Assembly (NCBI RefSeq): GCF_034092465.1
Contig: NZ_CP139303.1
Location: 1,144,865 to 1,208,864, forward strand
Origin: Prochlorococcus sp. MIT 1223
Lineage (GTDB): Bacteria; Cyanobacteriota; Cyanobacteriia; PCC-6307; Cyanobiaceae
Direction: 5' to 3'
Length of the DNA stretch: 64,000 nucleotides
In this document: positions 13,357 through 59,508 of the stretch, piece after piece
How the letters are laid out: the number at the start of each line of letters is the position of its first letter
Position numbering within the stretch: position 1 is the first letter of the stretch
The notes under the pieces: generated by a model
The model's input: the letters and a program-made list of their open reading frames with translations, nothing else
What the model was told of the DNA's origin: nothing
Databases searched by the model: none
Translations under genes and position numbers: made by a program

Positions 13357-14269
13357 TTATTTCATCTAAGCATTTTAAATAATAAGAATACCTGGGCCAG
13401 TTCTTATTCATTTTGCATCCAGGCTCATCACGATGCAAACAATCCCTAAATTTACAATCTTTTCCATTAGTTTGAATTCTAAACTCAGGGAATAAATTAG
13501 CTAATTTTCTTGCCTCTATTCCTAATTCTGGTCTATTAAAACCTGGCGTATCCGCAACATAACAGCCTTTGACTAATGAAAACAATTCAACATTTCTAGT
13601 TGTATGCCTACCTCTTTGCAACTTCTTTGATACAGACGATATGGAAATCGATTTATCCGGAAGTAACAACTTAATCAAACTACTTTTACCGACACCTGAA
13701 GGACCACACAAAACTGACAATTTAGATAATTTTAATTTATTTAATAAATCTACTGTGCCCATTCCAGTGATTGTAGAAAATAAAATAGGTTTATAGCCCC
13801 ACTGTTCAATCATTTTTTTATATGAAAGTAATTCATCAGATGAAATCAAATCAGATTTAGATAAGACTAAAGATACATTTAGACCTGTTCTTTCTGCTGT
13901 AATTAAAAACCTACTTGCTTGATCAAGATTTAAAGATGGTTCTGAAACTGAAATAAATACAAAAATATCAGAAACATTTGCAACTGGAGGCCTCTTAAGA
14001 AAGCTAATTCTTTCTTTTACACCATAAATAACACCTCTCTTTTGTTCCAAATCTATACTTTCTACAAACACTCTATCCCCTACATTAACTTCATAACCTT
14101 CATATTTCATTTTACTTCTTTGAGTACATAAAATGCGAATTGGATTAACATTATTCTCACTGTAATTTAGCAAAGAAGTATCTAATTTAATTGGCTCAAT
14201 CTCTACAATTAAATAATTAGCTTTTAATGAAATAACAAGCCCTTCGGCTTTTTTTAAATCAACTATCAA
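13334..14269 (-). CDS. rsgA: Small-subunit ribosome biogenesis GTPase
   Basis: RsgA is a circularly permuted GTPase that helps 30S maturation. The G motifs run in permuted order: LSKSD (G4), then [10 protein letters not shown] (P-loop, about residue 190) and DTPGF (G3). An OB-fold precedes them, and the C-terminal zinc-binding part is [16 protein letters not shown]. The 311-residue length is normal. Its start overlaps the end of the TusA-like gene by 11 bp, so it is the last gene of a grpE-dnaJ-tusA-rsgA run. Confidence 0.95.
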
Positions 14270-14507
14270 GACGATTAATTAATAACGTTAAAAACTCTTT
14301 GGTTTCATAAATAATTTTGACATTATGTCCAGATTTAGAAAGACCAGAAATAATTGTTTCTTCTGGCTCTCCTCTATCAATATCTACTTGCAAAAATTCT
14401 TGATTGTTTAATTTTTCTAAAGTCAAATTACAACGTACAAAATTCAACGGACATGGAGTACCACGTAAATCAAGATGTTCAATTAAAGAATTATTTTCTT
14501 CTATCAT
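14259..14507 (-). CDS. TusA/SirA-like sulfur carrier protein
   Basis: An 82-residue protein with the TusA-family signature LDLRGTPCPLNFVR, in which the Cys of the CP motif would carry a persulfide sulfur. Bacterial TusA takes part in tRNA thiolation and sulfur trafficking; the partners in cyanobacteria are not settled. It abuts the dnaJ stop with no gap and overlaps rsgA. No extra domain is present. Confidence 0.88.
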   Translation of the reverse strand: MIEENNSLIEHLDLRGTPCPLNFVRCNLTLEKLNNQEFLQVDIDRGEPEETIISGLSKSGHNVKIIYETKEFLTLLINRLDS

Positions 14508-15635
14508 TTAATTATTTCCAAATAATCTAGCGAACAAACCACTTTTATGATGATGATGTTGAGGACCTCTAGCTGAATGATGACTTGCTAATTGTTCGAG
14601 CAAAATCTTTTCTTCCTCAGAGAAACGGCTTGGTAATTGAACATTTACAGTAATAGATTGGTTACCTCTTGCTACCGGATTTCCTAATTTAGGAATACCT
14701 TTATTTTCCAAAGTAAGCACAGAGTTTGGTTGGGTACCAAGAGGAATATTGAGTTTAATAGGACCATCAACTGTTTCTACCTCAATAGTGTCGCCTAAAA
14801 TAGCTTGTAGATAACTTATCTTAATTTCAGAAAAAATTGTCAGTCCATCTCTTTTTAATTTTGGATGGCTCTTAACTTTAATAAAGACATATAAATCACC
14901 AGAGGGTCCTCCTCTTAATCCAGCATTACCTTCGCCAGTTACTCTTAAACGAGTTCCAGTATCTACACCTGCAGGAATATTAATACGAAGTTTTTTCCTT
15001 ATTTGTTTAACACCTTTTCCACTACACGAAGAACAGGGGTCTGAAATTATTTGACCAGAACCATTACAAGTCGGACACTCTGCTACTTGTGTAAAACTTC
15101 CAAATGGCGTTCTTGTTGCTCTGCGAACTTGACCAGCTCCTCCACAGGTATTGCAATTTGATGGTCCACTCCCTGGTCTTGATCCACTGCCTTGACAAGA
15201 ATCACAAGCTTCTAAATGAGGAATTTTAATTTCTTTTTCTTGGCCAAAAACTGCTTGATTAAATTCAACTGTTAAGTCATAACGTAAATCGTCTCCTTGT
15301 TGCGGACCTCTTCTCTGAGAGCGTCCTGAGGTAGGTCCTACTCCTCCAAAACCACTAAAAAATGTTTCAAACAAATCACCAAAACCACCCATGTCTCCCA
15401 TATCAGGCATACCCCCGCCACCAAGGCCTGCTTCACCAAATTGGTCATACTGAGCTCGCTTTTGAGGATCACTTAAGACTTCATAAGCCCTGCCAATTTC
15501 TTTAAAACGATCTTCAGCACCAGGTTCCTTATTAATGTCAGGGTGAAATTGACGTGCCATTTTTCGATAAGCACTTTTTAAAGTGTCTTGATCGGCATTT
15601 TTCCCAACGCCTAATAAGTCGTAAAAATCAGCCAT
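14508..15635 (-). CDS. dnaJ: Chaperone DnaJ
   Basis: A type I Hsp40. The J domain is at residues 1-70 with HPD in RQFHPDINK; a Gly-rich linker [16 protein letters not shown] follows, then four zinc repeats [24 protein letters not shown] and CSSCSGKG (about 143-212) and the substrate domains. The C-terminus carries an uncommon His-rich stretch [15 protein letters not shown]. It works with DnaK and GrpE; grpE lies 39 bp upstream on the same strand. Confidence 0.96.
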
Positions 15636-30759: not shown

Positions 30760-33156
30760 TTAAAACTTATTATTAATTCTACTTGAAAGAGAATTTTCAA
30801 AAGCAAATCTTAACTTTGATATAGGAATATCTACTAATGAACAATTATTTTGAGTAATAAATAAATGATTTACCTTTTGAACAACTCCTAGTTTAGTTAA
30901 ATTAATGTCTTTAGACCTACTATTATTAAATTCATTTACTAAAGAACTAATATTTTTTTGATTAGAAGGGGAGACACTAATTATAATTCTTGCTCCTCCT
31001 TCAGCAAATAACAAACGATCAATACGTGAATTTAATGAAGGAAGGTTTATTTTAGCACCATATTTTGAAGAAATAGAACACTCAGATATAGCAATTGCTA
31101 TACCTCCATCACTCACATCATGAGCTGATTCAATATAACGTTTAGAAATAGCTTCACGTAAAAAAGCTTGAACTTGCTTTTCTAAATCTAAATCAATTTC
31201 AGGAGGTCTACCTGTTATTAATTCATGAATAAATTCTAAATAAGCCGATCCAGAAAGGGTTACTCTACTATCTATTTTATTATCAAAAGGTAAACCTAAT
31301 AAATAAATTATATCTTGGTCATTTTTCCATGATGGAGTACAAATATTATTTAAATCATCCAATAAACCAACCATTCCAATAATTGGAGTTGGTTGTATTG
31401 GTTTAACTGTATTATCTATTTCTTTAGTTTCATTATACAACGAGACATTTCCTCCAATAACTGGTGTCTCCATTTTTCTACATGCAATAGATAATCCTTC
31501 ACAAGATGAAGCTAACTGCCAAAAACCTATTTCATTTTGAGGAGAAGAAAAATTTAAATTATCAGTAACAGCAAGGGGTAAAGCTCCTACACAACTAATG
31601 TTTCTAGCAGCTTCTGCAACTGCGGCCATACTTCCTCTTGCTGGGTCTAAGTAAACCCATCTATTAGGACAATCAACAACAGCAGCAATTCCTTTGTTGC
31701 TATTTTTTGTAGAATTAGAATCGTCCTGTGAACGAATCCTTATAATTGCAGCATCAGCTAAACCTGGACCTAGAACTGTATTAGATTGAACTTGATAGTC
31801 ATATTGATTATAAATCCAACTTTTTGAAGCAATGGAAGGGGAGTCTAATAAATTTAGTAAAATTTGATTCCAAGAAATTAATTTATCTTTTTTATAAATG
31901 CCCTTCAAAGTTTCTTTATCTAATAAACTTTCGGTCCATTTCCAATGATTTTGAATAAATTTAGGAGGCTCTTTTAATACACTATGTTTTTCTACAGGTG
32001 TATCATCAGCTAATGCTGTCGTTGGAACATCTGCAACTATTTGTTTATTATGAATAACTCTTACTCTCTTTTCTGGAATAACTTTTCCAACAATAGAAGC
32101 ATAAAGCCCCCATTTAGTAAAACGATTCATCAACTTAGACTCTAAACCAGGTTTAACAACAAAGAGCATCCTTTCCTGTGATTCTGATAAAAGAAATTCA
32201 TATGCAGTCATCCCTTTCTCTCTAGCTGGTACAGAGTCAAGATCTAATTCAATACCTACATCTCCTTTGGCTGCCATTTCAGATGAACTACATGTAAGAC
32301 CAGCTGCTCCCATATCTTGTGCTGCTATTACATCCCCAGCCTTAAAAGCTTCTAAACATGCTTCTATAAGACCTTTTTCAAAAAACGGATCTCCAACTTG
32401 TACAGCAGGTCTATCATCATAAGAAGAATCAGTAAGTTCCGCACTAGCAAAACTTGCACCACCCATTCCATCTCTACCTGTTGTATTACCTACATAAACA
32501 ACAGAATATCCAATACCTTTGGCTCCAGAACAAACAATATCTTGTGTTTCCATTAAGCCTATAGCCATTGCATTAACTAAAGGATTTCCTGAATAGCTTT
32601 CATCAAAAACAACTTCTCCTCCAACTGTAGGTACTCCTACACAATTTCCATAATGAGCAATTCCTGAAACTACTCCCTGTATTAAAGATATATTCTTTTC
32701 CTTATTTAAAGGGCCAAATCTTAGAGCGTTTAATATTGCAATAGGACGTGCACCCATAGTAAAAATATCTCTTAGAATTCCTCCTACACCTGTTGCAGCT
32801 CCTTGAAAAGGTTCTATAGCTGAAGGGTGATTGTGACTTTCTATTTTAAAAACTAATCTATCTCCATTTCCAATATCTATAACACCTGCATTTTCACCTG
32901 GACCAACTAATACATGAGGTGCTTTTGTTGGAAAATTTTGTAATAAAGGTCTAGAATTTCTATAACAACAATGTTCAGACCACATTACTCCAAACATTCC
33001 TAACTCAGTTCTATTTGGAGCTCTATTTAATCGTTGACATATTTCAACAAAATCTTCTTCTTTTAATCCTTCTTTAATTAAAGCTTTTACAATATCATAA
33101 TCACAAGTAAATTCGTTGGAATTTAAAATATTTAGAAAATTATCACTCTGTGTCAT
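30760..33156 (-). CDS. purL: Phosphoribosylformylglycinamidine synthase, subunit PurL
   Basis: PurL turns FGAR to FGAM with ATP and ammonia supplied by PurQ in complex with PurS (neither is in this window). The 798-residue length is that of the small, PurQ-dependent type. Key blocks are [66 protein letters not shown] and [14 protein letters not shown]. It follows the PRC-barrel gene by only 3 bp, pointing to one dnaN-PRC-purL-purF transcript. Confidence 0.97.
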
Positions 33157-33159
33157 AGA

Positions 33160-33915
33160 TCAAATCCAAGGGTCAGAATCATTATTATTTGACTTATTAT
33201 AAGACTCTGTAGGGTCTAAATCATATTGTAGTTCTTTGTTTTCATAATTACTTCTAACATTATCAAAACTATCTTTTGTATTTGAAAAACCTATGGTTCT
33301 ATCTTCCCAGGGAGATTCTTCTAACCATCCTTCTAATTTATTAGTTGCAACATTAGTAATATCTTGAATTTGATTTCTCCAGCCTTTACTTTTCTTTAAA
33401 ATTTCTTCTTTAACACTTGCTCTTAACAAAGGAAGATCATCTAGGGAGTTTAAATTAGACAAAATCATACCTGGCTGTTGATCCTTAATATGATCTATTT
33501 TTAATGACCAACGACTAGAACCTGGTATTCTAGGATTACTTCTAGAAACAAGATAATATAATATTCTGCCAGAATTATAATTAAAAACTAAATCTACTAA
33601 AGTAGCTATTTTAAGTCCATTCTTATTTAAAAGAGTTGTGTTTATCAAAGAAGGAATTCTATCTAAAGTAGGTTGGTCAGAAACAGAAGGCAATCCTTTA
33701 ACATAAATAAATTCATTTGATATTTTCTTTAACTGATCAAGCCTCCAAACTTCCTTATGAAGATTTAAAGAAGAAGTACTAGTTACCCATCCCAAAACCC
33801 TATGAACAGGTGGATGCATCCAAACCATATATCCTTTACCATGATCTATACCTTGATCACACCTAACAATTAGCTGTGAAAAATCAGATAATAATATATT
33901 ATTTAGATTAACCAA
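33160..33915 (-). CDS. PRC-barrel-like conserved protein next to dnaN
   Basis: A 251-residue soluble protein. A PRC-barrel-like block lies at about residues 35-125 (VHRVLGWVTSTS, KGLPSVSDQPTLDRIPSLIN, KIATLVDLVFNYNSGRILYYLVSRSNPRIPGSSRW). The last 100 residues are polar, ending in Asn/Ser/Asp repeats and probably disordered. PRC barrels in RimM bind ribosomal protein. It is known to me only as a cyanobacterial conserved gene beside dnaN, with no assigned function. It is 1 bp from dnaN and 3 bp from purL. Confidence 0.8.
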   Translation of the reverse strand: MVNLNNILLSDFSQLIVRCDQGIDHGKGYMVWMHPPVHRVLGWVTSTSSLNLHKEVWRLDQLKKISNEFIYVKGLPSVSDQPTLDRIPSLINTTLLNKNGLKIATLVDLVFNYNSGRILYYLVSRSNPRIPGSSRWSLKIDHIKDQQPGMILSNLNSLDDLPLLRASVKEEILKKSKGWRNQIQDITNVATNKLEGWLEESPWEDRTIGFSNTKDSFDNVRSNYENKELQYDLDPTESYNKSNNNDSDPWI

Positions 33916-33916
33916 T

Positions 33917-35050
33917 TTAACTTCTGATTTGAACAGGCATTACTAGGTATATAAATTTTAATTCTTCTGAAACTGGTGAAAAAATTGCAGGTGTTGTAGG
34001 TGAATTACATTTTAAAATTACTTCTTCAGAAGAAATAACTTTTAAACCTTCAAGTAAATATCTTACATTAAAAGCTATTTGATCTATATTTCCATTTGTT
34101 TTTACGGGTATTGATTCAGAACCACTTCCTACATCTTGAGCGTCTGCACTTATTAAAACAGTATTATTATTGTTCGTTAATTTAATAATATTATTATGCT
34201 GATCGGCTAAGACAGCTACTCTTTCTAAGGATGCAATAAAATCCAAGCGATTAAATTGAAGTTCATTTGAAAATTCGTCTGGTATCAATTGTAAATAATT
34301 AGGATAAATTCCATCTAATGTCCTAGTAGTAACTATTTGGTCTGAAGCCATAAACACTACTTGACCTTGATCTGAAAAGAAACTTATAGATTCAGCATCT
34401 TTACAACTACCTATAAACCTTTCAACTTCTCTCAAAGATCTTGCAGGAAGAGTTAATGAAAAATTTTCTTCATTATCGTTATCTAAAATATTTGATAAAT
34501 TAAAAACAGCCAATCTATGACCATCAGTTGCAGCCGCCTCAAAAGAAGAACTTTTAAAATTTAAATTAACACCTGTTAAAAGTTGTTTAGCTTCATCATT
34601 ACTACTCGCAAAAAGAGTAGACCTTAAAGAATTAACAAATTCAGAGGCATTTAATTTAATAGAATTGCCACTTTCTACTAAAGGTAGATCAGGAAAATCA
34701 TCTGAAGGCATTCCTCTAACTTGATAAGTGCCAGATTTGCTTTTCAGTGAAACCATCTCACCGTTTTCATCAGTTTCAAAAACTACAGGTGATTCATTTG
34801 ATAATTTTGAAATAATTTCTACTAATAATTTTGCAGGAAGTGTTATTGCACCACTAATTTCGACTGAAGCAGTTAAAAAAGTCTGAATACCAAGGCTTAA
34901 ATCAAATCCTGTTAAACTTAAGCGATTTGTACTTTGGTCAGCTGTTAAGAGGACATTAGCCAAAATAGGGTGAGTTGGTTTTGTAGCTACAGCCCTACTC
35001 ACCAACTGGAGAGCAGAGTTCAAATCAGTTTGAGAACAAGTAAGTCTCAT
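33917..35050 (-). CDS. dnaN: DNA polymerase III beta sliding clamp
   Basis: DnaN is the ring that holds the polymerase on DNA. Three repeated clamp domains in 377 residues are seen: MRLTCSQTDLNSALQLVSRAV at the start, LPARSLREVERF in the middle and the C-terminal YLVMPVQIRS. GHRLAVFNL and FVNSLRSTLFASSNDEAKQLLTGV are strong family blocks. It reads away from the presumed origin just upstream and starts a closely packed run to purF. Confidence 0.96.
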   Translation of the reverse strand: MRLTCSQTDLNSALQLVSRAVATKPTHPILANVLLTADQSTNRLSLTGFDLSLGIQTFLTASVEISGAITLPAKLLVEIISKLSNESPVVFETDENGEMVSLKSKSGTYQVRGMPSDDFPDLPLVESGNSIKLNASEFVNSLRSTLFASSNDEAKQLLTGVNLNFKSSSFEAAATDGHRLAVFNLSNILDNDNEENFSLTLPARSLREVERFIGSCKDAESISFFSDQGQVVFMASDQIVTTRTLDGIYPNYLQLIPDEFSNELQFNRLDFIASLERVAVLADQHNNIIKLTNNNNTVLISADAQDVGSGSESIPVKTNGNIDQIAFNVRYLLEGLKVISSEEVILKCNSPTTPAIFSPVSEELKFIYLVMPVQIRS

Positions 35051-35427
35051 TAAATAAAAAAATTGAGAACCTTAAAGGCGATAACTAAGGATTTCATAGC
35101 TATTTCAGAAGCGCAATACCCTTAAAAAAATCGATATCTTTGTTTTCTTTTTCTAATTCTATTTCAAAGAAAATATATGAATAGTAGTAGTAGAAGCTGA
35201 GGAAACTGTGGAAATTACCCATAAAGCATTGGTAAGACTACTCTTTATGGAATCATTGTATGTTGAAAAAAAAAATTAAAAGTTAAAAAACAAACCTTTT
35301 CCACAAAAAATTATATGTGTGAAAAATCTTAGAAAATAAATAATTCAAGTTTTTGCCTTTTCTCCACAAAAAATGAACTAAACAATATTTAAACTCCACA
35401 GACACTTTTTTTTTTGACCACTTCTTT
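35051..35427. other. Putative chromosomal replication origin (oriC)
   Basis: A 377-bp gene-free gap between dnaN and thrC, where the origin of Prochlorococcus genomes is placed from memory of their dnaN-first numbering. It has several DnaA-box-like 9-mers: 35207-35215 (minus, ATTTCCACA), 35297-35305 (plus, TTTTCCACA), 35318-35326 (minus, TTTTTCACA), 35360-35368 (plus, TTCTCCACA) and 35392-35400 (plus, AACTCCACA). A long A run at 35265-35275 and a T run near 35406-35415 could serve as unwinding elements. It must also contain the dnaN promoter. Confidence 0.75.
35297..35305 (+). promoter_or_regulatory. Best DnaA box
   Basis: TTTTCCACA, the form reported for cyanobacterial DnaA boxes as far as I recall, just after an A/T-rich run. 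It is the strongest of five box-like sites in the gap. Confidence 0.6.
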
Positions 35428-36534
35428 TTAAAGTTTCATTGCTTTGACTACGTCATTAATAGTTGGATCTAAATTTGTATGGAATATTGCATCATTATTA
35501 TTAATTGCACAATCTGGGTCTTTTAACCCATTTCCAGTTAACACACAAACGATTGTGGAATCTTTTGGTACTTCTCTTTTAAGTTTTAATAGTCCAGCTA
35601 CGGAGGCTGCACTGGCAGGCTCGCAAAAAATACCTTCCTTTTCTCCCAGTAATTTATATGCTCTTATAATTTCTTCATCAGTTATTGCTAGAAACTTCCC
35701 ATTGCTTTCTTTTTTCACTTTTAATGCTTTTTCCCTATTTACAGGATTACCAATTCGTATAGCCGTAGCTATTGTTTGAGGTTCATGTATTATTTTTTCA
35801 TGAACTAGTGGAGCTGAACCGCTTGCTTGAAATCCCAACATTCTTGGTAACTTATCTGACCTCTTATGTTTAAAATATTCTTGAAATCCCATCCAATAAG
35901 CACTGATATTTCCTGCATTTCCCATAGGGATACATAACCAATCTGGTGCATTTCCTAATGACTCAATGATTTCAAAAGCCGATGTTTTTTGCCCTTCTAA
36001 TCTGAATGGATTTACAGAGTTAACTAAAGTTACAGGATATTGAGTAGATATTTCTCTTACTATATCTAATGCTTTATCAAAATTACCATTTATAGAAATA
36101 ACCTCTGCCCCGTATACAAGTGCTTGAGCTAATTTTCCTTGAGCAACATATCCTTCTGGAATTAAAACAAATGCTCTCATGTTTCCTCTTTTTGCATATG
36201 CTGCTGCAGAAGCTGAAGTGTTTCCAGTACTTGCACAAATAACAGCTTCACAATTATTTTCTTTTGCTTTGCTTATTGCCATAGTCATTCCTCTATCTTT
36301 AAATGAACCTGTAGGATTTAGACCGTCGTATTTAACATATACTTTTACATTTTTTCCAATTTCTTCTGATACAGATCTTATATAAATTAACGGTGTTGCT
36401 CCTTCTTGAAGAGTTATTATTGGTGTTTTTTCACTTACTGGTAACCATTGCATATAAGCTTCGATTAAACCAGGCCAGGTTTTGTGAACAGTATTTTTCT
36501 TAAATGAATTTTTTATAGTTTTGATAAAAGACAT
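35428..36534 (-). CDS. thrC: Threonine synthase
   Basis: ThrC makes threonine from O-phosphohomoserine using PLP. The Schiff-base lysine is in NPTGSFKDRGMTMA near residue 81; ASTGNTSASAAAYAKRG, the phosphate-binding PMGNAGNISAYW, and VCVLTGNGLKDPD are family blocks. The 368-residue length fits the short, plant/Bacillus-type enzyme. It reads toward the origin and is 1 bp from the DUF1400-like gene. Confidence 0.96.
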   Translation of the reverse strand: MSFIKTIKNSFKKNTVHKTWPGLIEAYMQWLPVSEKTPIITLQEGATPLIYIRSVSEEIGKNVKVYVKYDGLNPTGSFKDRGMTMAISKAKENNCEAVICASTGNTSASAAAYAKRGNMRAFVLIPEGYVAQGKLAQALVYGAEVISINGNFDKALDIVREISTQYPVTLVNSVNPFRLEGQKTSAFEIIESLGNAPDWLCIPMGNAGNISAYWMGFQEYFKHKRSDKLPRMLGFQASGSAPLVHEKIIHEPQTIATAIRIGNPVNREKALKVKKESNGKFLAITDEEIIRAYKLLGEKEGIFCEPASAASVAGLLKLKREVPKDSTIVCVLTGNGLKDPDCAINNNDAIFHTNLDPTINDVVKAMKL

Positions 36535-36535
36535 T

Positions 36536-37111
36536 TTAAATAGAATTAATGTTTTTAAGTTTGTCTAATGGAGATCCACTAAAAAATTCTACAAGATCAT
36601 TCATTGATTCAACTTTATTAATAACTTTACTTAAAGCTGAATAATTAATAGCTATATTTTTATTTGGATAGGATTTTAAAAATTGAATTAAATTTATTCT
36701 TCCATTTCCTTTTACTATTCCATTAATTAAAGCTGCTCTTATCGCCGGAACACTTATTGATTTATTTTCTACTTTATTTGGATAGATTATTTCAGCTACT
36801 CTCGATAAAATAACGGAACCTATCTTACTATTTATAAGTTTACTTGTAAGTACTAGAGGAGCTTCGTACTCTTGGTTTAACAAGTCAGAAATTTCATCTT
36901 TATTTTGATTAGTTAGCTTTATAATTTTTTTTAATGAACCTTTCAGTTTTTTTGTTTTTGCTAGATGATCTAGTGATTCAACTGATATTGATCTACTTAA
37001 TATACCTTTATAAATTATAATATTCTCTGCACAATTAACTTTTTCACAATAAATAAATGAATTGATTGTCATCAAACAACTTATAGTTAAGGAGGTAAAA
37101 AGGAACTTCAT
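36536..37111 (-). CDS. Exported DUF1400-like protein
   Basis: A 191-residue protein with an N-terminal signal (FLFTSLTISCLMTINSF). The body has IIIYKGILSRSISVESLDHLAKT and then helical segments, with AIRAALINGIVKGNGRINLIQFLKSYPNKNIAINY, matching the DUF1400 domain that precedes alpha/beta hydrolases in cyanobacteria. Here it stands alone without the hydrolase part. It begins right at the ABC1 kinase stop and is 1 bp before thrC. The function is unknown. Confidence 0.75.
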   Translation of the reverse strand: MKFLFTSLTISCLMTINSFIYCEKVNCAENIIIYKGILSRSISVESLDHLAKTKKLKGSLKKIIKLTNQNKDEISDLLNQEYEAPLVLTSKLINSKIGSVILSRVAEIIYPNKVENKSISVPAIRAALINGIVKGNGRINLIQFLKSYPNKNIAINYSALSKVINKVESMNDLVEFFSGSPLDKLKNINSI

Positions 37112-38962
37112 TTAGACTTCTACTCCTGCAGCAATTTTTACTAACCTGACCATACCTTTTTCACTCGTTTTTTTGAAAACGTCTAAGCCCATTTTTCTTG
37201 TTACAGGCTCCTTAATTATTCTTGGTATCTTTTTGAAAAACATTCTTTTTTTGAAGCCAGGAATAACATTAACAATGTTATTTACTTTATTATTAGTCTT
37301 TAGATTTAATTTATAATTATTTAATGATTTTTCAATGGTTTTTGATCTTAGTTTTACTGGTAAACCATGATTTATTTTTTGAATAGCACCCCAACTCAAT
37401 CTATCTAACTTTTCTGCGATTATTTTTACTATTTCATTTCTTAAAACAAGTCCTTTTTCAGAAAAGATAAAATTAATTATTTGATCTAGTAAATCATCAA
37501 TATTTAATTCAGCTTCTAAAGTCGCACTTCCAATCAAGTCTTCAAGTCTTTCCCACATAAAAGCATTTTTATCAAATAACATTTCTTTTAGACTTTCTCT
37601 TAAGCCCGGGTCTTCATCTTCTATTAATCTTTTAGCAAAGTAAGGATAAGCTGCTCCTAAGATTTTAAATTTTGGATCAACACTTAAGGCTATCCCTTCT
37701 AGAGTTATTAGAGATCTAATGATTAAGGCATAATAAGGTGGGAGTTGGAATGGAAATTTATACATTACACCGGATAAATCATCGGTCACACGTTTAAAGT
37801 CCATTTTATTCACACCTACTTTTACAGCTTTACTAAAGACTTTTTCAAAAGCAGGAACAATAGGTTCTAAATTGACTTCTCGTGGTAAAAACCCAAGCTC
37901 AACAAAATCTTTAGATAATTTATCAAAATTCTTATTAACTAAATGTACTACAGCTTTTATAAGTCCAGTCCTAGATTCTTTTGTTACGTTGCTCATCATT
38001 CCAAAATCTAAATAACATAATTTTCCATTCTTTAAGGCTAAAATATTTCCTGGGTGAGGATCTGCATGGAAAAAACCGTGCTCTAACAATTGTTGTAGAC
38101 TACAACTAACTCCTATCTCAATCATTTCTTTAGGCTTGAAACCTAATTCTTTTACTTTTTCGATATTTGTTAGTTTTACACCGTCAATCCATTCCATTGT
38201 TAGTACTCTTCTACTTGTTACTTCTCTATATATTTTAGGAACAGCAATTTGTTCATTATGCTTGTGCAACTCTCTAAATCTTTCTGCATTGTCAGCTTCA
38301 TTTAAATAATCCATTTCTTCAAATACTCTTTTACCTAATTCATCTATTAATGCGACTAAGTCACTTCGAATAAGTTTAATATTAGCTTTTAGCCAATATG
38401 CAATGTTTCTTACTATATATAAATCAAGAGTGATTTGCTCTCTTAAACCTGGCCTTTGAACTTTTACTGCAACTATATGCCCATTCTTTAAAATTCCTTT
38501 ATGCACTTGTCCAAGTGATGCAGCAGAAATAGGTTCTTTTTCTATTTTTTCAAAGATATCGTGAATTTCTACATTTAAATCTTGTTCGATACATGCCATT
38601 GCTAGATCTCCATCGAACCCTGGAAGTTGATCTTGAAGTTGGGCTAGTTCTTCTAGGACTAATTGTGGTACAACATCGGGCCTTGTTGAGAGAGCTTGTC
38701 CCGCTTTTATAAATGCTGGGCCTAGCTTTACTAATAAATTTGTAAACTCTTTTGATCGATCACGTGCTTTTTCTTGATCTTTAAGTACACCAATAGTTTT
38801 CTCCCAAAAAATTTTCCCAAGAAACAGTGCAATTGGAATTAATGTTTGCCAAAGTCTTGTTAAAAGTCGACTTGGGTTTCTTTGATATATTCTTCTTATT
38901 GCTTCAGGGTCATATTCCAGTAGGCCTGCTGCCTCAATAAAATCATTTACTTCGTCTGCCAT
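37112..38962 (-). CDS. ABC1/UbiB/ADCK-family atypical kinase
   Basis: A 616-residue UbiB-like protein kinase-fold protein. The family's KxGQ motif appears in AFIKAGQALSTRPDVVP, the Ala-rich loop in EPISAASLGQVHKG, then IVAVKVQRPG, HADPHPGNILAL and YLDFGMMSNV as catalytic and metal blocks. Relatives act in quinone or prenyl-lipid metabolism and plastoglobule function. A membrane-near C-terminus is possible. It is divergent from recN with 78 bp between. Confidence 0.92.
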   Translation of the reverse strand: MADEVNDFIEAAGLLEYDPEAIRRIYQRNPSRLLTRLWQTLIPIALFLGKIFWEKTIGVLKDQEKARDRSKEFTNLLVKLGPAFIKAGQALSTRPDVVPQLVLEELAQLQDQLPGFDGDLAMACIEQDLNVEIHDIFEKIEKEPISAASLGQVHKGILKNGHIVAVKVQRPGLREQITLDLYIVRNIAYWLKANIKLIRSDLVALIDELGKRVFEEMDYLNEADNAERFRELHKHNEQIAVPKIYREVTSRRVLTMEWIDGVKLTNIEKVKELGFKPKEMIEIGVSCSLQQLLEHGFFHADPHPGNILALKNGKLCYLDFGMMSNVTKESRTGLIKAVVHLVNKNFDKLSKDFVELGFLPREVNLEPIVPAFEKVFSKAVKVGVNKMDFKRVTDDLSGVMYKFPFQLPPYYALIIRSLITLEGIALSVDPKFKILGAAYPYFAKRLIEDEDPGLRESLKEMLFDKNAFMWERLEDLIGSATLEAELNIDDLLDQIINFIFSEKGLVLRNEIVKIIAEKLDRLSWGAIQKINHGLPVKLRSKTIEKSLNNYKLNLKTNNKVNNIVNVIPGFKKRMFFKKIPRIIKEPVTRKMGLDVFKKTSEKGMVRLVKIAAGVEV

Positions 38963-56818: not shown

Positions 56819-58125
56819 TAAAAATTGATAGAGCACATATCGTTCAATCACTTTCTACTAATCGTGTAGGTAGTTACTTCTTTCAATTTGGCCTTTTCCT
56901 ACTTCCATCAAGTGCTTTATTAGGATCAATCTTTTTATTAAGTTCTAGTTTTATAAAACCTTGTCATAGAGAGATTTCCTTTTGGGAAGACAAATGGAAT
57001 TATTTATTAATATCAACTGCGCTTTTAATGATAATTGGATGTTTTCATGCGTATTCAGGGACTTTGGCTTGGCTTGGACTGGCTAATTGGATTCCTCTTT
57101 TTTGGTGTTTTTGGGGATTTCAACCTTATCTTCGGACTCCAGACTTAAGAAGACGTTCAGCATATTGCTTGATTCTTGGTACTGTACCTCTTTTGATTAC
57201 CGGATTTGGAGAGTTATGGCTTGGTTGGGATGGTCCTTGGCAAACATTTAATGGTTTGATTATTTGGTTTATTAGTGCTGGTGGTGAGCCGGAGGGACGT
57301 TTATCAGGTTTATTTGAGCATGCTAATTATGCTGCTGCTTGGTTAGTAGTAGTTTGGCCATTGTCTTTAGCTGCCTTGATTCAGCCTTTCTTAAATTTAA
57401 GGAAACGAAGTTTTGTATTTTGCTTCGTCATGGCAGTTTTTATTGCACTTGTCATGACAGATTCTCGAAATGGTTGGGGAGGATTAATATTCGCTATTCC
57501 TTTTGTATTAGGACCTATTAATTGGACTTGGTTCTTACCTTTATTTTTTATCATCTTATTACCAATTGCTTTGGCAGTACTTCCAGGAATTGATACTGGT
57601 CTTCAAGAATTAGCAAGAAAAATTGTTCCAAAACATCTGTGGTCTCGCTTAAATGATATGAGATTTGTTGACTCTAGACCAATTGAAGGAACTCGTCTTG
57701 CTCAGTGGAATGTTGCTTTTGGACTTATTAAAGATAAACCTTGGTTCGGTTGGGGTGCCGCAGCTTTTTCAGTTTTATATCCGATACGTAAAGGTTTGTG
57801 GCATGGACATGCGCATAATTTGCCTATTGAATTAGCTGTATCTCATGGATTGCTCGTTTCTATATCTATTGTGGGAATGGTAGCTTCTTTGTTAATCATT
57901 GCTTTGCTGCGTGGTGTTTTAGTAGTTAATCAAAATCGAAATATAGACAATGATAATTTAAGTTTTGATAGAGCATGGTGGACATCTACTTTTTTACTTG
58001 TTTGTTTTCATGGTACGGATATGCCTTTTTTTGATAGTCGCATTAATCTTGTTGGATGGGTTTTATTAGCAGGGTTAAGATCTTTAATATATTCACAAAA
58101 GCTAGAATCAAGAAATAGAGCTTAA
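56815..58125 (+). CDS. ictB: IctB-like O-antigen ligase family membrane protein
   Basis: A 436-residue polytopic protein with around ten membrane helices and the O-antigen ligase/polymerase Wzy_C type loop (FGLIKDKPWFGWGAAAFSVLYPIRKGLWHGHAHNLPIELAVSHG). IctB was first linked to inorganic carbon accumulation in cyanobacteria; whether it is a carbon transporter is disputed, and a glycan ligase role is equally possible. The start ATG overlaps the purU stop as ATGA, so the two are coupled. Confidence 0.85.
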   Translation: MIKIDRAHIVQSLSTNRVGSYFFQFGLFLLPSSALLGSIFLLSSSFIKPCHREISFWEDKWNYLLISTALLMIIGCFHAYSGTLAWLGLANWIPLFWCFWGFQPYLRTPDLRRRSAYCLILGTVPLLITGFGELWLGWDGPWQTFNGLIIWFISAGGEPEGRLSGLFEHANYAAAWLVVVWPLSLAALIQPFLNLRKRSFVFCFVMAVFIALVMTDSRNGWGGLIFAIPFVLGPINWTWFLPLFFIILLPIALAVLPGIDTGLQELARKIVPKHLWSRLNDMRFVDSRPIEGTRLAQWNVAFGLIKDKPWFGWGAAAFSVLYPIRKGLWHGHAHNLPIELAVSHGLLVSISIVGMVASLLIIALLRGVLVVNQNRNIDNDNLSFDRAWWTSTFLLVCFHGTDMPFFDSRINLVGWVLLAGLRSLIYSQKLESRNRA

Positions 58126-58164: not shown

Positions 58165-59508
58165 TTATTTATATTCTATTTTTTGATCAAGTTCCATTCT
58201 TATTTGTCTTTCATAAATTGATGATTCATTGAATATCCGTGCAATGACAAAACTAGTTATACAAGTAATTAAAATAGGTTTTAATATAAGAAGATCCTTA
58301 GTCAAAGCAAAAGCTAGAAACATTGCTGTTATAGGTGTTCTTGAACAAGCAGATATAAATCCGCCCATTCCAGCAAAGACATAGGTGCTAGGTATATGCC
58401 CAGTAAATAGTTCGATTGAATTCCCACAAGCTAGGCCAATTGATCCTCCTAGAATTAACATTGGATAAAACAAACCACCAGGTGCGCCTGAAGCTGCAGC
58501 TATTCCTGTACTAATAAACAAAACAATAAATGTGCCTAATGCCATTGATATTGTTGCTTCACCTTCGGCAATTAAATTTTGCAGTCCTCCTAAGTGGTGA
58601 AAATCTTCAGGAAGGAAAGAGAATATCCCACCAAGGACAATTCCACTCAAGACCATTCTTAAAACAAGTTTATTCCCAAACCAAATATGTCCTTGTTTTT
58701 TCATTATGAGGAGGTAACGGCAATATATTTCTGCTAGTACACCAATTATTATTCCTAATATGATTAAGTAGCCTAGATCGATAGGAAGGAAGTCTACAGA
58801 GGGCGAATACTCTCGCTGCAATTGAAAACCTAAAACATTATCAAAACCTCCAGCTTTAGGGTCTAGACCAATACTTTGCAATACATCCGCCCAGGTATCA
58901 GCCCAAAAAGTTGTGACTACTACTAATAGGAGAACTATAGGCTTGGCCGAATTTAATAATTCTTCTATCGCGTAAATGAACCCTCCTATTGGGGCACTGA
59001 AAATTGCTGCGATTCCTGCCCCGCCACCAGCGGCGACAATTACGCGTCTAAATGCTACAGGAGCTTTCAACCATTGAGCCATTTGCCATGCGACAGAGCC
59101 ACCCATTTGAACTGAGGGACCTTCTGGTCCTAATGGAAAACCACTTCCTATCGCAACAATTCCTGCAAATAATTTCACTAGACCAACTTTTAATCCCATA
59201 GGTACAGGCTTATGTCGCAAAAAAGCAATTATTTGACTAACGCCGGAACCGCTTGCAGCAGGAGCAATCTTAGCTATTAAGAGTCCAGAGATAAGACCTC
59301 CCATTCCGCCAAGAGTTGGCAGAATAAACCAGACAGGGAATTTCTCAAGAAGGTTTAATCTCCAATCATCTAAGGCATGAACGCCTGTTTTAAAAAGAAC
59401 TCCAGTTAATGCTGCACCTAGACCGGTAAGTGCTAAAGCACAAATAACTACAAACCATCGTTGTTGTAATAATCTACGAATACTCCGATTAGATATCTCA
59501 GCCATCAT
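58165..59508 (-). CDS. ClC-family chloride transporter
   Basis: A 447-residue ClC protein without CBS domains. SGSGVSQ is the first selectivity motif, GFPLGPEGPSVQMGG holds the gating glutamate, APIGGFIYAIEELL has the pair of Glu including the inner proton site, and GAPGGLFYPMLILGG is the GxFxP-like segment. With both glutamates present it is likelier a Cl-/H+ antiporter than a channel; this is inference from CLC-ec1. The start is a double ATG. It is 4 bp after acnB. Confidence 0.9.
   Translation of the reverse strand: MMAEISNRSIRRLLQQRWFVVICALALTGLGAALTGVLFKTGVHALDDWRLNLLEKFPVWFILPTLGGMGGLISGLLIAKIAPAASGSGVSQIIAFLRHKPVPMGLKVGLVKLFAGIVAIGSGFPLGPEGPSVQMGGSVAWQMAQWLKAPVAFRRVIVAAGGGAGIAAIFSAPIGGFIYAIEELLNSAKPIVLLLVVVTTFWADTWADVLQSIGLDPKAGGFDNVLGFQLQREYSPSVDFLPIDLGYLIILGIIIGVLAEIYCRYLLIMKKQGHIWFGNKLVLRMVLSGIVLGGIFSFLPEDFHHLGGLQNLIAEGEATISMALGTFIVLFISTGIAAASGAPGGLFYPMLILGGSIGLACGNSIELFTGHIPSTYVFAGMGGFISACSRTPITAMFLAFALTKDLLILKPILITCITSFVIARIFNESSIYERQIRMELDQKIEYK

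Follow-up and report, generated by a model that had tools for sequence, protein, structure and literature searches.

Does replication of the Prochlorococcus sp. MIT 1223 chromosome start in the gap between dnaN and thrC, and which of its bases would then be the first to open? The gap lies in a stretch of 64,000 nucleotides (the whole of the DNA analysed, here called the window) within one contig of 1,795,922 bp, and an earlier note on this DNA had put it forward as a candidate replication origin. In the accessible passages of a 2010 study (PMC2836286), Prochlorococcus origins located by GC skew are flanked by dnaN and the threonine synthase gene, with DnaA boxes nearby; TTTTCCACA boxes and a dnaN neighbour are standard for cyanobacteria in the available parts of PMC4674748 and of the DoriC 10.0 paper (PMC6323995). 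Because this location has been in print since 2010 and the DnaA-box/DnaA-trio basal unwinding system (BUS), the type of element seen here, is known, the window's origin belongs, as far as those partial texts go, to a known kind; it is an ordinary member, described here more exactly than in the prior passages. The notable part of this analysis is not the origin of the window but the pattern at trio centres across its relatives.

The gap and its neighbours

Open reading frames and Pfam domains confirm that the gap of 377 bp lies between dnaN and thrC and is therefore placed beside dnaN, as are other dnaN-linked cyanobacterial origins (Table 1). The name thrC is that of the earlier note and fits the published gene order. 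That note had seen no gene or tRNA in the gap, which holds: no tRNA was found in 33000–38000, and no Rfam match reached the gathering score in 34500–36000. The nearest named relatives in a dnaN search, among the two loci returned, were Prochlorococcus single-cell genomes, 77% and 61% identical.

Table 1 Features of the predicted origin and its flanks (window coordinates)
Feature	Position	Strand	Basis or remark
dnaN, DNA polymerase III beta clamp	33917..35050	-	Pfam PF00712, PF02767, PF02768
dnaN–thrC intergenic gap, predicted oriC	35051..35427		Open reading frames, Pfam, no tRNA or Rfam match, skew changepoint
AT-rich tract adjoining the trios, candidate first-melting site (DUE)	35141..35190		Melting predicted
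Two more NAN triplets (TAT, GAA) extending the trio run	35176..35181	+	Published NAN rule
Four perfect DnaA-trios, TAG x4 (3'-GAT-5' away from the boxes)	35182..35193	+	
4 bp between boxes and the four conserved trios (AAG + C)	35194..35197	+	AAG is itself a NAN triplet
DnaA box 2 of tandem pair, GTTTCCTCA	35198..35206	-	Two mismatches; slot -13
DnaA box 1 of tandem pair, ATTTCCACA	35207..35215	-	One mismatch; slot -22
DnaA box TTTTCAACA	35261..35269	-	One mismatch; conserved slot about -75
DnaA box TTTTCCACA	35297..35305	+	Exact; conserved slot about -112
DnaA box TTTTTCACA	35318..35326	-	Conserved slot about -133
DnaA box TTCTCCACA	35360..35368	+	Conserved slot about -174
Doubtful DnaA box AACTCCACA	35392..35400	+	Three mismatches; position about -207
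thrC, threonine synthase-like PLP enzyme	35428..36534	-	Pfam PF00291 only

Strand composition switches inside the gap

The earlier note had proposed cumulative GC skew as a check, which proved weak: mean GC skew is -0.007 to the left and +0.023 to the right, and the best raw-GC split falls about 180 kb away. On a 20-kb grid, raw GC skew placed the switch best near C1:1,360,000 and strand-corrected GC skew near C1:1,100,000–1,140,000, both shallow, and GC skew was dropped as a locator. As it is shallow and splits elsewhere, we located the switch by T–A skew, comparing T with A at fourfold-degenerate sites and separating the gene-strand effect, in a 464-kb sample made up of the window and 20 stretches of 20 kb, with long open reading frames called by a simple script. 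The replication part of this skew is negative in all 11 pieces left of the gap (mean -0.106) and positive in 12 of the 13 to its right (mean +0.099); the sole exception is the piece opposite the gap, where a terminus would be expected. Inside the window, a single changepoint fits best at 35250 (support 34750–35500, 6,327 sites), and dnaN on the left and thrC on the right, both on the minus strand, have opposite T–A values (0.21 and -0.17). The strand-composition switch of a dnaN-linked cyanobacterial origin is thus present in T–A skew. The accessible text of PMC2836286 describes the same position and nearby boxes; the present account adds trios, slots and a box list, and places the switch by T–A rather than GC skew.

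In many bacteria the origin lies near dnaA, and the record of this chromosome begins at that gene: the dnaA frame starts at base 54, and the dnaN–thrC gap is about 616 kb away. An origin near dnaA is nevertheless extremely improbable here: T–A skew keeps its sign across dnaA (+0.104 and +0.108), and one paper, in the portion available, reports that Prochlorococcus has no DnaA box close to that gene.

A cluster of DnaA boxes

Five CCACA/TCACA-type 9-mers in both orientations within about 195 bp had been reported in the earlier note; they are there (ATTTCCACA, TTTTCCACA, TTTTTCACA, TTCTCCACA and AACTCCACA) and span 194 bp. The CCACA/TCACA core occurs five times in the gap, against 0.73 expected, a count reached in none of 2,000 shuffles. 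When up to one mismatch to TTTTCCACA is allowed, the 377 bp hold five sites against 0.28 expected, and none of 2,000 dinucleotide shuffles reaches five; this count takes in TTTTCAACA and leaves out the weak AACTCCACA. Allowing up to two mismatches leaves a weaker excess (8 against 3.1, p 0.012). The gap therefore holds a cluster of TTTTCCACA-type boxes above chance, as other dnaN-linked origins do. Over the full 64-kb window there is no enrichment (38 sites against 32.5, with 38 reached in 17 of 100 shuffles), so what stands out is the clustering in the gap.

The accessible texts on the dnaN-linked origins of S. elongatus PCC 7942, Anabaena PCC 7120 and Cyanothece 51142 describe the same dnaN neighbour and box consensus; the gap differs from them in that it has a single exact TTTTCCACA, its other sites being degenerate. 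At least two exact copies occur within 900 bp of dnaN in 36 of 44 loci from other cyanobacterial families, against the one in the window. The density of exact TTTTCCACA is uninformative as evidence, the genome having 20 copies and 35 of the reversed control pattern. Outside the window, two pairs of exact TTTTCCACA copies in opposite orientation, 188 and 45 bp apart (G000, C1:574452/574640 and C1:1493883/1493928), are possibly other DnaA-binding sites.

Tandem boxes beside DnaA-trios

The earlier note had named the box at 35297–35305 as the best copy. An exact TTTTCCACA does stand there, but the core of the site is at 35176–35215, which that note had missed: two abutting DnaA boxes (35198–35215) beside TAGTAGTAGTAG (35182–35193). 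On the plus strand the 40 bases run TAT GAA TAG TAG TAG TAG AAG C, then TGAGGAAAC, then TGTGGAAAT; read from the opposite side, they give a strong box, an abutting weaker box, a short spacer and 3'-GAT-5' trios. Under the published BUS rules, the box may differ from the consensus at no more than two positions, the spacer may not exceed 16 bp, and three or more NAN triplets are needed. Here the co-oriented tandem boxes have one mismatch (ATTTCCACA) and two (GTTTCCTCA), and seven NAN triplets follow the strong box after a 10-bp spacer. When up to three mismatches are allowed, the genome has a single copy of the window's module sequence.

Beyond the trios lies an AT-rich tract. By nearest-neighbour stability over 40 bp, 35151–35190 is less stable than 98.3% of window positions; two other stretches of the gap, 35251–35290 and 35311–35350, reach 96.7–96.8% on the same measure. 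In the accessible parts of PMC8287927, PMC6669920 and PMC10721633, the BUS of B. subtilis and S. elongatus shares the co-oriented tandem boxes and short spacer, as well as the 3'-GAT-5' trios, the AT-rich tract beyond them and separate distal boxes. The difference, as far as those texts extend, is that most family loci have four conserved trios after a 4-bp spacer and that GC-rich relatives have either A or C at the trio centre. The module at 35176–35215 is the one that should open the DNA.

Elsewhere in the window, isolated TAGTAGTAG and CTACTACTA runs (57344–57352 and 58917–58925) lie inside long open reading frames, have no box with up to one mismatch in the surrounding 2 kb and are probably due to chance.

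Conservation within the family

We compared 63 dnaN upstream regions of the family (62 relatives and the window), a non-random set of best dnaN matches and chosen genera. It derives from 64 regions, less L006, which duplicates L003; loci whose gaps were cut short by a contig start (L008, L016, L027, L032, L060, L064, L068–L072, L076–L078 and L080) were left out, as was the split gene L082/L083, and L082, G018 (L080) and G101 (L016) were examined separately. The thrC gene lies upstream on the same strand in 61 of the 63 loci, the other two having no thrC within 1,200 bp.

By our reading, the module is present upstream of dnaN in 62 of the 63, with the first trio 121–210 bp from dnaN (L073 excluded). 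In 61 loci, two boxes and four trios together score above the 99th percentile for shuffled gaps; below it are L062 (score 18), in which the elements can still be read, and L073 of genome G019 (score 12). Across 36 groups (34 genus codes plus two named single-cell genomes, of which one belongs to the genus of the window), mean pairwise identity is 0.80 for the trios, 0.78 and 0.66 for the boxes, 0.46 for the 4-bp spacer and 0.33 immediately ahead of the boxes; because boxes and trios were themselves scored to find the register, their high values are partly built in.

Distal boxes played no part in setting the register, and their slots recur: -133 in 24 of the 36 groups, -76 and -113 in 17 each and -174 in 15, against a maximum of seven groups in any slot under random rotation (500 trials). 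The five sites of the window with up to one mismatch stand at -22, -76, -112, -133 and -175. Position -207, that of the doubtful AACTCCACA, has such a site in just 5 of the 36 groups. As the loci are related by descent and were not randomly drawn, these counts are not independent; they describe conservation, not probabilities.

Several one-contig family records start 173 bp before dnaN (C1:1–174), a few bases from box 1 of the module, and the L223 record starts inside that box. On one 19-kb contig of G242, two equal-score dnaN copies stand on opposite strands (C19:4388–5542 and 13646–14800), owing either to the assembly or to an inverted duplication.

Other cyanobacterial families

Of 44 regions upstream of dnaN from other families, some sharing a genus, 34 carry the module by our reading, typically as TTTTCCACA, NTTTCCACA, 4 bp and CTACTACTACTA. 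Three loci (L116, L119 and L121) have tandem boxes with no trio run at the usual distance, and seven (L114, L115, L128, L130, L149, L150 and L152) have no module within 900 bp upstream of dnaN. Six of these seven have no site with up to one mismatch in the 900 bp, and L128 has boxes without a module; the origin of these seven cyanobacteria may lie elsewhere. Given its presence in 34 of 44 loci, the box and trio module looks old in the phylum on this sequence comparison, in line with the in vitro activity reported for S. elongatus; there, according to the accessible text, the BUS works in vitro, with DnaA-dependent strand separation that requires boxes as well as trios, and oriC is near dnaN.

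These loci also bear on another reading of the boxes, as a DnaA-responsive control region of dnaN or a DnaA-titrating site, with replication starting elsewhere. The array does sit directly upstream of dnaN, and DnaA acts on promoters too in other bacteria, according to the available parts of the literature. We regard this reading as very unlikely, since the sampled whole-chromosome T–A skew switches inside the gap, the trio element is known to act in opening, and the module stands as far as 300–640 bp from dnaN in 11 of the 44 loci. Moreover, the only promoter-like match in 34950–35550 lies within thrC, and this count of one is below the shuffle mean of 2.4. The predicted oriC array may control dnaN as well.

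A lineage with no dnaA match

Genome G019, the source of L073, keeps the dnaN–thrC neighbourhood, with a gap of 150 bp (about 2650–2800) that holds no box with up to one mismatch and no trios; an exact 9-mer stands just beyond the gap, inside thrC. With a looser pattern, G019 gave one two-mismatch match far from dnaN and the reversed control also gave one, so that match was set aside as chance. G019 is also alone in lacking a dnaA match among the 238 family genomes searched with completeness of 90% or more and contamination of 5% or less, and a search of the genus around it returned G019 itself and no other; the joint absence of array and dnaA is thus that of one draft genome. T–A skew on its contig 1 is weak, with a left mean of -0.028 (9 of 11 pieces negative), a right mean of +0.035 (6 of 9 positive) and a remnant beside dnaN (-0.110 and +0.096). 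G039, a control with the module, has the full T–A pattern (10 of 10 negative, 9 of 10 positive), at about 35% GC against about 49% in G019, so that the control is not GC-matched. In the accessible text of PMC7198777, dnaA loss in cyanobacteria is linked to irregular skew, and the weak skew and missing dnaA of this one draft fit that link.

A dnaA match is missing in eight further genomes, and the five examined (the others being G081, G100 and G236) all keep the module by our reading; missing assembly is therefore the likely explanation in those five. In G008, dnaA (C15:8821–10194) carries one in-frame TAG, and dnaN matched in two pieces.

G019 also helps to weigh a third reading, in which the gap is a decayed ancestral origin and replication, no longer dependent on DnaA, begins at scattered sites, as it does in some other cyanobacteria. 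Replication without DnaA is described for several cyanobacteria in the parts of that literature available, and the boxes of the window are imperfect. Its four trios are perfect, however, and the skew sign holds at the sampled distances, whereas the relative without a dnaA match differs in both gap and skew; a relic is scarcely credible.

Taken together, the T–A changepoint, the conserved box and trio module, the fixed box offsets in 36 groups and the joint absence of array and dnaA in one lineage agree. They support the replication-origin reading of the earlier note, and the gap is very probably a DnaA-dependent chromosome origin (oriC).

Proposed opening of the duplex

The dnaA gene of this genome is full-length and encodes a DnaA with domains I, III and IV (Pfam). 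In our reading of an alignment to chain 8btg, the B. subtilis residues for single-stranded DNA capture, N187, I190, I193, R202 and E228, align with N201, I204, I207, R216 and E242, all five identical by our count. We suggest that domain IV of DnaA would bind the two abutting co-oriented boxes at 35198–35215 and that the AAA+ domains would polymerize from this platform onto the plus strand (35182–35196), each pair of subunits taking the 3'-GA-5' dinucleotide of a trio. The duplex would then open into the AT-rich tract, toward dnaN, and helicase would load, with two forks leaving in both directions. The boxes at about -75, -112, -133 and -174 may form a distal cluster that raises local DnaA and feeds the site; B. 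subtilis also requires a distal box subregion, according to the accessible part of PMC6669920.

Trio centres shift from A to C in GC-rich relatives

In the available text of PMC10721633, B. subtilis DnaA subunits take two bases per trio, with Asn187 contacting the amine of the central A; C can replace this A in vitro and outdoes G or T in vivo. A 2021 survey, in its accessible passages, suspected the existence of trios without a central A. We examined 128 family loci, deliberately enriched in GC-rich genomes and registered without using trio centres. The trio strand has 374 A, 128 C, 7 T and 3 G at the 512 centres, so that 128 of the 138 departures from A are C. C centres occur in 21 genera, T and G centres in three each. 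Adenine thus does not hold every trio centre in GC-rich relatives; the window itself is canonical. Departures climb with GC (rank correlation of GC with intact centres, -0.86 in 36 groups), and trio 1, nearest the boxes, retains A in 125 of the 128 loci.

GC pressure alone would be expected to make A to G on the trio strand at least as common as A to C. Other positions on the same strand were counted for comparison: the T positions of box 2 have 303 T, 69 A, 12 C and no G, those of box 1 have 406 T, 65 A, 26 C and 15 G, and G exceeds C (186 against 117) in the 12 bases past the trios. The box 1 and flanking counts temper the result at the centres: the trio strand may have a mild general lean to G, although one much smaller than the imbalance of 128 to 3 at the centres. 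By parsimony on a dnaN tree of 50 loci, 26 of 30 centre changes are between A and C of the trio strand, and changes at the third base of the trios are mostly transitions (18 of 24); the tree is a quick one with some weakly supported branches, and parsimony ties were broken at random.

We consider it rather probable, with appreciable room for doubt, that natural trios follow an 'amine rule', 3'-G(A/C)N-5' rather than 3'-GAN-5', in which rising GC swaps the central A for C in picocyanobacterial origins and the trio nearest the boxes nearly always keeps A. Besides adenine, cytosine is the base that carries the exocyclic amine gripped by DnaA. We found no report of A to C in natural trios in the accessible text of PMC8287927, PMC10721633, PMC6669920, PMC6323995, PMC10225481, PMC13220808 or PMC8235120, in a search whose scope excluded most subscription papers, preprints and supplements.

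Implications

Although GC skew in this genome is too weak to reveal the predicted origin, the site is narrowed here to some dozens of bases, and those expected to melt are named. The lineage in which neither dnaA nor the array was found offers a natural comparison for DnaA-independent replication. If the trio-centre pattern is as proposed, BUS searches that require a central A undercount origins in GC-rich genomes, and the pattern suggests how to find the trios that such searches miss. A laboratory result from B. subtilis, C in place of the central A, would then become a pattern that evolution appears to have used repeatedly.
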